DNA of 35,953 nucleotides from an uncultured Acholeplasmataceae bacterium (lineage in GTDB: Bacteria > Bacillota_I > Bacilli_A > Acholeplasmatales > Acholeplasmataceae). The notes under the pieces are model-generated. The model ran no database searches, was not told where the DNA came from, and saw nothing but the letters and a program-made list of their open reading frames with translations. The stretch is from contig CAKMKH010000060.1 in the NCBI GenBank assembly GCA_927441705.1, positions 77,194 through 113,146 of the forward strand, in the 5' to 3' direction. Numbering within the stretch: the stretch's first letter is position 1; the number at the start of each line of letters is the position of its first letter. Below, in pieces: positions 12,992 to 15,845 of this stretch. Both the position numbers and the translations under genes were made by a program.

Positions 12992-13021
12992 CCAATAATT
13001 TAGACAACTATTTTGTATATA
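12992..13021 (+). promoter_or_regulatory. Putative alternative-sigma promoter of the sigma/anti-sigma operon
   Basis: CCAATAA, exactly 15 bases, TGTATATA. The same two words at the same spacing stand before the lipoprotein gene (14643-14672). In both places the motif ends 6-8 bases before the ribosome site, as expected for a promoter with a very short leader. It fits neither a standard -35 nor a standard -10, so autoregulation by the ECF-like sigma encoded here is the simplest reading. Confidence 0.55.
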
Positions 13022-13040
13022 TAGTGTAAGGGGAATGTTT

Positions 13041-13556
13041 ATGGGTAAGCAAATGAATGAAATCATCAAAGCATTTAAGCAAAAAAACTACGAATCATTT
13101 GATCAGTTTTATGAAATGACGAATCGTCAAGTATACTATGCAATCATCCAAATTGTTAAAGATGATGAGGTTGCAGCAGACTTGATGCAAGAAGTCTATA
13201 TGACTTTTTTAGAAAAAATAGATCAATTTAGACTAGACGGTAATGTATACGCTTATTTATCAATGATGGGTAGAAATACAAGTATTAATTATTATCACAA
13301 ACAAAAAAGAGAAGTTCATTCAGATGAACTTTTAGAAACATTTGAATCAGAAGAAAAAGTAGTTGATAAAGATGTCAGTGACATCTTATCATTACTAAAT
13401 CTATTAAATAAAGATCAAAGAGAAGTTGTCGTACTACATACGATTAACAATCTTAAATTTAAAGAAGTTGCTGAAATTATGGATAAACCACTTGGAACAG
13501 TATTGTGGCTTCATAGTGAAGCAATCAAAATATTAAAAACGAAGGTAGGTGATTGA
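13041..13556 (+). CDS. ECF-like sigma-70-family RNA polymerase sigma factor
   Basis: A small (about 171-residue) sigma factor with only regions 2 and 4. Region 2 is seen in DDEVAADLMQEVYMTFLEKI and the following VYAYLSMMGRNTSINYYHK. Region 4 is LLNLLNKDQREVVVLHTINN followed by LKFKEVAEIMDKPLGTVLWL, a helix-turn-helix. It should direct RNA polymerase to a small regulon. The second ATG (13041) is chosen because AAGGGG lies 7 nt before it. The ATG at 13035 would be too close. The next gene begins 1 nt after the stop and encodes a membrane protein, the usual place for an anti-sigma factor. It resembles ECF factors more than SigI. The target promoter may be the CCAATAA-N15-TGTATATA motif. Confidence 0.88.
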   Translation: MGKQMNEIIKAFKQKNYESFDQFYEMTNRQVYYAIIQIVKDDEVAADLMQEVYMTFLEKIDQFRLDGNVYAYLSMMGRNTSINYYHKQKREVHSDELLETFESEEKVVDKDVSDILSLLNLLNKDQREVVVLHTINNLKFKEVAEIMDKPLGTVLWLHSEAIKILKTKVGD

Positions 13557-13557
13557 T

Positions 13558-14625
13558 ATGAAAGATAAAAAAGTCATGAAAATCATTAAACAAAAAGCAG
13601 ATGAAAAACAAATTCCAAATGTATCAATGCTTATTAAAGAAAAACTAAATATCAATCAACAAATTCAAGAAGAACGCATTATTGTTAAAAAAAGATTTAA
13701 CTTTAAAGCTTTATACGTTTCGTTTTCTTTAGTACTAACTGCATCAGTTGTTGTTGTACTTACATTACTTAGTCAAGGACAAAGTGTTGATTTATTCGAT
13801 AATTCTGAATTTAGTGATCAAGTTATATTATCTGCAATCTCAACAGTTGAACTTATAGATCTAGATACTGAGCTTAACGTTGATTATTCAACAAACGTTT
13901 TATTATCATTAGAAGATGAAGATGATTTTGTTGAAAATCAAATTGATGAAGTATTAAAATATACTGAATTTATGGAAACATTGTTAAATAATCCTGATCA
14001 ATATCAAAAAGAGATTAAAGAAGTTTCATATTTAGGATATAAAAATCTTTTATCTTATGAGTTTAAAGATATGATGGGCGAAACGAATACCTATAATTTT
14101 TATTATCATCAAGATATCGATAGTAAAAGTAATACATATAAAATTAAAGGTTTATTGGTAACTGAAGATGATAATTTCGAACTTACTATTGATGGTTTGA
14201 TAGCTGAAGATGAATTTGTAATGACTTATCATATTGATGAAAATCAAAAAATAAATGTAATTTATCAAATGATTAATAACGAACATCAATTGACATTAAA
14301 AAGATATAATCAAAATATCATCATGAAAGAATCAAAGATTAACTTTAATAATAAAGAAGAAGCAACACTTACATTTATAAAAGGAGAAGCTAAAGGTATT
14401 TATCGTTTCCAAATGGATCAAGAGTTTATAAATGGAAAACAAATGCGAATTAATTATAAAATCGATGATATTGATGAAGGTGAAATTGATCTTTTAGTAG
14501 AATCAGAAACAAATCATAGCTATATCATTAATATTAGACCAGATAATAGACCTGAAATCATAGTAGAACGCGATAGACCAATGCAACCTGGACATGGAAG
14601 TAGACCAGATAATGGAAGAAATTAA
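13558..14625 (+). CDS. One-pass membrane protein, probable anti-sigma factor
   Basis: I do not recognise the family. The 355-residue protein has a basic cytoplasmic N-terminus of about 50 residues (KDKKVMKIIKQKADEKQIPN), one membrane segment at about 51-72 (ALYVSFSLVLTASVVVVLTLL) and a long acidic outer region. A proline/arginine-rich tail contains RPDN twice (IRPDNRPEIIVERDRP, then SRPDNGRN). There is no zinc-binding ZAS Cys/His motif. The ATG at 13558 has AGGTGA upstream, and the gap to the sigma gene is 1 nt, so translation is probably coupled. Gene position, topology and the downstream RsgI-like lipoprotein together support an anti-sigma role (inference). The cytoplasmic part is short for that job but long enough for a helical sigma-binding segment. 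Confidence 0.7.
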   Translation: MKDKKVMKIIKQKADEKQIPNVSMLIKEKLNINQQIQEERIIVKKRFNFKALYVSFSLVLTASVVVVLTLLSQGQSVDLFDNSEFSDQVILSAISTVELIDLDTELNVDYSTNVLLSLEDEDDFVENQIDEVLKYTEFMETLLNNPDQYQKEIKEVSYLGYKNLLSYEFKDMMGETNTYNFYYHQDIDSKSNTYKIKGLLVTEDDNFELTIDGLIAEDEFVMTYHIDENQKINVIYQMINNEHQLTLKRYNQNIIMKESKINFNNKEEATLTFIKGEAKGIYRFQMDQEFINGKQMRINYKIDDIDEGEIDLLVESETNHSYIINIRPDNRPEIIVERDRPMQPGHGSRPDNGRN

Positions 14626-14642
14626 CAAAATTTAAGAAAATC

Positions 14643-14672
14643 CCAATAAAAACGGATGTCAGAATGTATATA
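14643..14672 (+). promoter_or_regulatory. Putative alternative-sigma promoter of the RsgI-like lipoprotein gene
   Basis: CCAATAA, 15 bases, TGTATATA, identical in words and spacing to the motif at 12992-13021. The AGGAGG ribosome site begins 8 bases downstream. No terminator separates the anti-sigma gene from this gene, so read-through is also possible. Confidence 0.55.
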
Positions 14673-14694
14673 GAGTGAATAGGAGGTATTCATT

Positions 14695-15780
14695 ATGAAA
14701 AATTTAAAATTAGTTTTAACATTTATCGCATTATTTGCAGTAGTAGGATTAATCGTCGGGTGCAGTACAACAGCACAAGCCGAAGATAGTTATGTTACTT
14801 TAGATATCAACCCTAGTGTTGAATTGATCGTTTCACCAAGAGACAAAGTTATTTATGCAAATCCATTAAATGAAGATGCAGAGGTATTATTAGTAGAACT
14901 AGACTTAATAGGTATGGATTTAGAAGATGCTATTGATCTTATTATAGAAACATCAATCGAATTAGGATATATCTCAGTAGACGAAGACACTGAAACTTAT
15001 GTATCAGTATCAACAATCAACACTGATGATGCAATTCAAGAAAAAATTCAAAATAAAGTTAAAGAACATGTAAACAAGGCGTTTGAAGACAGAGGTATGT
15101 TTGGAAAAGCGAAAGATAAAGAATTCAATCAAGAATTCCTTACTGAAGCTCAAAGTTTTGGAGTTACTCCAGGATTTTTATTCCTAGCAAAAGAAGCTGT
15201 AGAACTTAAGGATGATTTATTACTAGAAGATGCTGTCTTAATGACAAGAGCAGAACTATTAGATATCGTTAAGGAAGCTAGACAAGCAGCTAAAGATGTA
15301 GCATTTGAATTAAGAGATGAATTTCATGCAGATCGTGATGCACTATTCTTAGAATATCATCCACAAATCGAAGCATTAGAAGTACAAATCTTAGCAATTG
15401 AAACAAGAATTTTAGAAATTGATGCAGAAATACTTGCACCAACTGAAGAAACTGTTGTTGAAGACTTAGAAGCTGAAAAAGCTACTTTAGAAACAGACCT
15501 TGAAACTTTAGAAGCTGAGTTAGAAGCATTACAAGTTGAATTCAAAGAAAAACTTGAAGTGATTAGAGATGAATTTCATACTCAAAGTCAAGCTTTAAGA
15601 GAAGCTTTCAAAGAAGCTAAACAACAAATGAGAAATCAACATCAAGAAACTGTAAATCAGTTTCGTGAAGAAATGGAAGACCGCAAAGACCAAATGAGAG
15701 ATCGTATTAGAGAATATCAAGAAGGTCAAGAAGATGAAGAAACTAACGAAGAAACAAATGGTAACGCATCAAACAGATAA
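14695..15780 (+). CDS. Lipoprotein with RsgI-like DINPS domain and long coiled coil
   Basis: A 361-residue surface lipoprotein. Signal peptide residues 1-22 end in LIVGC, with Cys23 lipidated. Residues ~32-100 (SYVTLDINPSVELIVS, VIYANPLNEDAEVLL, LEDAIDLIIETSIELGYI) closely match the extracytoplasmic middle domain of RsgI-type anti-sigma-I factors. That domain is known to self-cleave at the Asn-Pro bond, here Asn39-Pro40. After it comes a helical region, then at ~235-345 a highly charged Glu/Leu-rich coiled coil ending in a Gln/Arg/Glu-rich tail. In known RsgI proteins this domain sits in the same chain as the membrane segment and sigma-binding domain. Here it is separate and lipid-anchored. 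Strong AGGAGG site. It shares a promoter motif with the sigma gene. Confidence 0.8.
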   Translation: MKNLKLVLTFIALFAVVGLIVGCSTTAQAEDSYVTLDINPSVELIVSPRDKVIYANPLNEDAEVLLVELDLIGMDLEDAIDLIIETSIELGYISVDEDTETYVSVSTINTDDAIQEKIQNKVKEHVNKAFEDRGMFGKAKDKEFNQEFLTEAQSFGVTPGFLFLAKEAVELKDDLLLEDAVLMTRAELLDIVKEARQAAKDVAFELRDEFHADRDALFLEYHPQIEALEVQILAIETRILEIDAEILAPTEETVVEDLEAEKATLETDLETLEAELEALQVEFKEKLEVIRDEFHTQSQALREAFKEAKQQMRNQHQETVNQFREEMEDRKDQMRDRIREYQEGQEDEETNEETNGNASNR

Positions 15781-15809: not shown

Positions 15810-15845
15810 AAAGAACTTAAATGTAAAAATTTAAGTTCTTTTTTG
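15810..15845. terminator. Terminator between the lipoprotein gene and ytqB
   Basis: A perfect 13-bp stem (AAAGAACTTAAAT and complement) with a 6-base loop, T-run on the right and A-run on the left, so probably bidirectional for the convergent genes. A weaker 6-bp hairpin (CCCATA/TATGGG, 15781-15798) without T-run precedes it. Confidence 0.8.

Follow-up and report, generated by a model that had tools for sequence, protein, structure and literature searches.

A stretch of 35,953 nucleotides from an uncultured Acholeplasmataceae bacterium (the window; contig CAKMKH010000060.1) carries three consecutive genes that quite probably form an envelope-stress module, in which an ECF sigma factor would be controlled by a membrane anti-sigma factor and a sigma-controlled lipoprotein with an RsgI_M domain would be the third conserved part. 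Most likely, the lipoprotein is induced by the sigma factor and serves this ECF system as a surface partner or as a feedback element. The genome (G000, with the window on contig C60) measures 1.76 Mb. The first-pass annotation of the same DNA had recognised genes for a two-domain sigma factor, a one-pass membrane protein and a lipoprotein, all three of which are indeed present in the window, and had interpreted them as a split sensor module derived from RsgI. The RsgI_M domain on a separate lipoprotein, the linkage of the genes and a likely anti-sigma factor are retained here, whereas the splitting of an RsgI protein is not.

The first gene (13041..13556, forward strand) encodes a sigma factor of 171 aa, assigned from domain profiles and family comparison, which possesses regions 2 and 4 only (Sigma70_r2, 1e-10; Sigma70_r4_2, 6e-9) and matches the ECF superfamily model TIGR02937 at 2.5e-21, the first-pass annotation having called it ECF-like. 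Its start is placed at the ATG at 13041, with an alternative ATG at 13035. No SigI model figures among the best 25 of the 92 profile matches to this protein, which, as judged from its sequence, is an ordinary ECF factor and not a SigI-type one.

The second gene (13558..14625, forward strand; ATG 13558 as the best start, GTG 13549 being open too) encodes the candidate anti-sigma factor, so designated on the basis of its predicted structure and of its N-terminus, compared with those of ECF-linked membrane proteins. Residues 1-48 are cytoplasmic and precede one predicted transmembrane helix at about 49-72 and an extracellular all-beta domain at about 150-340; in the structural model (pLDDT 79.6), two short cytoplasmic helices are of low confidence. 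As the first-pass annotation had remarked, the protein belongs to no recognised family, Pfam and NCBIfam searches giving nothing above cut-off. No RsgI_M domain is detected in it by profile search, and its ectodomain finds no significant structural match in the PDB (best E=0.05) and weak SH2 matches alone in a profile search of the PDB (E=0.03 or worse). The 46 N-terminal residues match the N-termini of ECF-adjacent membrane proteins, among which are RsgI_M-bearing ones, with an hhalign score of 29.5 (P=3e-6), compared to a maximum of 13.0 across 60 column shuffles; removal of the closest sequence (L221) leaves the match at P=7.8e-4. Since the reading frames of the sigma factor and of the membrane protein abut or overlap in the module loci, and since its N-terminus resembles those of other ECF-linked membrane proteins, the membrane protein is taken as a likely anti-sigma factor. 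A sigma factor with regions 2 and 4, followed by a one-pass membrane protein with abutting or overlapping frames, is also the arrangement of known ECF sigma/anti-sigma modules.

The third gene (14695..15780, forward strand), followed by an inverted repeat and a T run read from the sequence as its likely terminator (15812..15839, forward strand), encodes a lipoprotein of 361 aa with a signal peptide, an IVGC lipobox whose cysteine stands at position 23, and a complete RsgI_M domain (PF23750, E=6.4e-27) in residues 32-164. The resemblance to the RsgI middle domain reported in the first-pass annotation is thereby upheld, while the domain extends to about residue 164 and not to about 100 as then believed. 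Likewise, the coiled coil formerly put at ~110 residues becomes, in the predicted structure, a helical tail of ~150 residues made of two helices (203-247 and 255-354). The model of the lipoprotein (pLDDT 86.7) matches the fold of solved RsgI periplasmic domains in a PDB search, with E=4e-7 for 8hdj and a TM score of 0.77, by target length, for B. subtilis RsgI (8t9n_B), in line with the structural likeness previously supposed.

The Asn39-Pro40 codons (14809..14814, forward strand), the expected site of self-cleavage, fall in a loop between the strands 32-37 and 41-46. Several RsgI chains of the PDB retrieved by sequence search align from their first residue, which is the proline of the Asn-Pro motif, and begin Pro-Ser, a starting point that fits self-cleaved homologues. 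By analogy with these, self-cleavage of the lipoprotein at Asn39-Pro40 is probable. An alignment of 32 lipoproteins shows Pro40 in every sequence and Asn39 in all but one (L080:1817-2866), where about 30 inserted residues take the place of the asparagine and the remaining domain is kept; another lipoprotein (L066) lacks the lipobox cysteine. In the light of these natural exceptions, neither the Asn-Pro motif nor the lipobox cysteine would be absolutely required everywhere.

The occurrence of the same domain as in RsgI, in a gene adjacent to that of a membrane protein, could also be due to the breakage of one ancestral RsgI gene, its membrane and extracellular portions becoming separate, as the first-pass annotation implied in speaking of a split RsgI. 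This origin is rejected as highly improbable. Besides the fact that the sigma factor is not SigI-like, RsgI_N is found neither in the membrane protein nor in any of 88 Acholeplasmataceae genomes by a search that recovers it in B. subtilis, the membrane N-terminus is unlike RsgI_N (P=0.99 in a profile comparison), the membrane protein has a full, unrelated all-beta ectodomain of its own, and relatives exist with RsgI_M on both proteins. The lipoprotein therefore looks, from these comparisons, like a retained twin of such a pair rather than a split-off fragment.

A close copy of the window sigma factor occurs in 33 of the 88 Acholeplasmataceae genomes, all 33 of which also possess the membrane protein and the RsgI_M lipoprotein, thus bearing out the linkage of the three genes in relatives. 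They are adjacent as a module in these genomes except in G027, where contig ends split them and the sigma gene lies at the end of a separate contig; the membrane protein of G003 is divergent and was identified by position and by profile. Outside these genomes, the sole RsgI_M gene of G039 is another one, located at a contig end, and the remaining genomes of the 88 have none of the three genes. Such conservation of gene order in related loci is, as far as sequence comparison can tell, far beyond chance. In one genome (G087, L093:2270-3260), the lipoprotein gene is broken into two frames inside RsgI_M.

Comparison of the upstream regions revealed the motif CCAATAA-N16-GTATAT-NNN-GTG in front of the sigma and lipoprotein genes alike. 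In the window, an exact match, CCAATAA-N16-GTATATNNNGTG, precedes the sigma-membrane operon (12992..13026, forward strand), and a second copy with 0 mismatches lies upstream of the lipoprotein gene (14643..14677, forward strand). Within the family, CCAATAA-N16-GTA is found upstream of 31/32 sigma genes and 32/33 lipoprotein genes, with a spacer of 16 bases in every case, and of 0/30 membrane genes. From its conserved place upstream of the sigma operon, we infer that the window sigma reads this motif; it is accordingly predicted to be autoregulated through a dedicated promoter, and the lipoprotein, having its own sigma-type promoter copy, is probably an output of the neighbouring sigma factor as well as a possible input, and not merely a sensor.

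The predicted regulon is small. CCAATAA-N15-17-GTATA has three matches in the genome of the window, namely upstream of the sigma gene, of the lipoprotein gene and of a gene whose product, secreted and 831 aa long, has a subtilase domain (E=1.5e-50). The secreted subtilase (L160:1336-3831, G000:C23), a predicted target of the window sigma, carries Listeria-Bacteroides repeats and could be a site-1 protease. With the longer motif, one mismatch brings in the lipoprotein of a second sigma module and up to two mismatches add a secreted DUF2202-like protein. Sites with 0-2 mismatches were accepted, both 2-mismatch sites being conditional on support from relatives, which exists for the DUF2202-like one, as such proteins recur among promoter targets in relatives, and is lacking for the other; three mismatches amount to background (31 matches versus 39 in a reversed control). 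A close version of the promoter also stands at 9/13 further RsgI_M genes of the family. Some RsgI_M lipoproteins of the family are 783-791 aa long and have the domain three times in tandem (L100:3016-5391, L109:2765-5116, L110:3676-6051, L112:957-3308), with Asn-Pro in each domain among those read out, a similar promoter upstream and this sigma not nearby. In a genome devoid of the module, an intact-looking promoter (L153:722, G006:C33) has no gene of at least 60 aa right after it and is perhaps a relic.

These promoters leave appreciable, if lesser, probability to a reading in which the lipoprotein is purely an output. It would then belong to the sigma regulon as a protein of the surface or of structural function, without regulating anything, and RsgI_M would have found a second use in it as a linker that is self-cut, tolerant of force or able to be shed. 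Its own sigma-type promoter, its predicted co-regulation with the subtilase and DUF2202 proteins, and the existence of other RsgI_M proteins, including the three-domain ones, under similar promoters away from any copy of this sigma all point that way. However, unlike the other predicted targets, the lipoprotein gene has kept its place beside the sigma pair throughout the 33 genomes, and in many other families anti-sigma factors with RsgI_M have RsgI_M lipoproteins as neighbours. Tight linkage favours a regulatory role, and the separate promoter together with the other RsgI_M targets favours an output role; both roles may hold.

In the preferred reading, that of a sigma-induced surface partner, the sigma factor and the membrane protein would be co-transcribed from their dedicated promoter, the membrane protein using its cytoplasmic N-terminus to hold the sigma factor. 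Surface stress would lead to loss of the anti-sigma factor, probably by regulated proteolysis ending with a site-2 protease; as the genome encodes an RseP-like enzyme of this type, the membrane anti-sigma factor could be removed in this manner. The freed sigma factor is predicted, from the promoters, to transcribe its own operon, the lipoprotein, the secreted subtilase and the DUF2202-like protein. Since Lgt and LspA are also encoded, the lipoprotein can be lipidated. As suggested by its homologues, its RsgI_M domain would fold and probably cut itself at Asn39-Pro40, the two parts being held together by their shared sheet, so that the helical tail would remain bound non-covalently to the lipid-anchored strand. 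RsgI_M is thought to work by self-cleavage and separation that expose the membrane helix of the anti-sigma factor itself to a protease. The lipoprotein has no transmembrane segment after processing and is thereby barred from the RsgI route as a substrate of the site-2 protease and confined to acting at the surface. It would most likely act there in trans, either in a feedback partnership with the ectodomain of the anti-sigma factor or as an element that can be shed from the surface.

The first-pass annotation had gone further in envisaging a two-part mechanical sensor, where strain on the coiled coil would separate the cleaved RsgI_M domain, which would then act on the outer region of the membrane protein and free the sigma factor. 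The retention of Asn-Pro in nearly all copies, the linkage of the genes and a layout of anchor, strand, scissile loop, domain and long helix that mirrors RsgI are consistent with such a device, which nevertheless appears unlikely given the predicted induction of the lipoprotein itself by the sigma factor and the lack of specificity of the contact signal. Indeed, a partial distance correlation between the membrane ectodomain and RsgI_M (r=0.58), the pattern of which fitted the expected contacts, was dropped as evidence that the two proteins touch, the unlinked subtilase taken as a control correlating with the membrane ectodomain at least as strongly (r=0.88).

Compared with the SigI/RsgI systems of B. 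subtilis and C. thermocellum, the window shares an RsgI_M (SEA-like, SEAL) domain placed immediately beyond the membrane, an Asn-Pro motif in the loop that follows strand one, a long distal region and a site-2 protease in the genome. It differs by an ECF sigma factor in place of SigI, by the absence of RsgI_N, and by an RsgI_M domain on a separate lipid-anchored protein with its own sigma-type promoter, whereas in RsgI a single polypeptide combines RsgI_N and RsgI_M with one membrane span. RseB and MucB, which have been shown experimentally to bind RseA and MucA, respectively, offer another likeness, being separate extracytoplasmic partners of a membrane anti-sigma factor that are encoded nearby; in the window, in contrast, contact between the lipoprotein and the membrane protein is an inferred one, and the likeness is one of arrangement rather than of demonstrated homology. 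In C. thermocellum, RsgI is cut by itself outside the membrane, then by RseP in its membrane helix, ClpXP completing the process (PMC12203970), and the pair sigma24C-Rsi24C is counted among the RsgI-like ones (PMC3990059). The latter pair resembles the Clostridia loci compared here, where ECF sigma factors are paired with RsgI_M membrane proteins, but has its extracellular region on the anti-sigma factor, whereas the window anti-sigma factor has a beta domain and RsgI_M lies on the lipoprotein.

Twin RsgI_M modules of Bacilli and Clostridia (L221, L224, L305-L323) are a further close comparison. The locus of Tenericutes ADurb.BinA124 (L221) encodes a sigma factor, an RsgI_M membrane protein and a separate RsgI_M lipoprotein in the gene order of the window, and a Clostridia locus (L224) has the same trio with the lipoprotein gene first. 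This trio is present in 17/20 loci from a class-wide search, a figure that is not a frequency, the loci having mostly been picked for two nearby RsgI_M matches. These modules share with the window the ECF sigma factor, the membrane anti-sigma factor, the RsgI_M lipoprotein and Asn-Pro, and in 4/7 tested sigma-membrane-lipoprotein loci the sigma and lipoprotein genes have a promoter in common, its own sequence being unlike that of the window; they differ in that their anti-sigma factor bears RsgI_M, whereas that of the window is all-beta. Conversely, a second module of the family (L094:3652-6531 in G000:C76, L095-L099, L113-L115) combines another ECF factor, sigma2, with a membrane protein with a beta ectodomain and, where seen, a lipoprotein whose beta ectodomain is homologous to the membrane one, behind a CCAATAAAA...CGTTTA promoter. 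Membrane proteins related to this type are detected by profile A1 in 97/395 genomes of the class.

In view of these beta/beta and RsgI_M/RsgI_M modules, that of the window looks like a hybrid of a beta-type anti-sigma factor and an RsgI_M-type lipoprotein, and it is proposed to descend from, or to hybridise, modules with the same ectodomain on both proteins. The homology of the two ectodomains in the twin RsgI_M and the sigma2 modules, together with the sigma-type promoter of the sigma2 lipoprotein, would suit a decoy, whereby titration of the signal that the anti-sigma ectodomain senses would allow the lipoprotein twin to switch the response off. However, the ectodomains of the two window proteins are not homologous, and a decoy role is here held to be improbable.

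No description of this arrangement was found in a literature search covering a limited set of papers, and a module with RsgI_M on a separate lipoprotein appears to be undescribed. It is put forward tentatively, at a rather low level of confidence, that a self-cleaving RsgI_M lipoprotein, sensitive to force or damage, co-regulates an unrelated membrane anti-sigma factor in trans, and that twin-ectodomain ECF modules, consisting of a membrane anti-sigma factor and its sigma-induced lipoprotein twin, are an undescribed signalling class, widespread across Bacilli and Clostridia and extending to wall-less bacteria. The conservation of RsgI_M on lipid-anchored proteins devoid of the membrane helix, in wall-less hosts and under apparent sigma control, raises the question of what else self-cleavage serves. 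This question can be tested, since the promoter is defined, the predicted regulon small and the hosts culturable. The presence of twin modules in many Bacilli suggests that feedback is a general principle of design. Finally, a Haloplasma contractile MAG (L222:2062-4924) encodes an ECF sigma factor, a protein whose Cys motif is of the zinc-binding, anti-sigma-like kind, and ~1 kb downstream an RsgI_M protein that is membrane-anchored and not lipidated.
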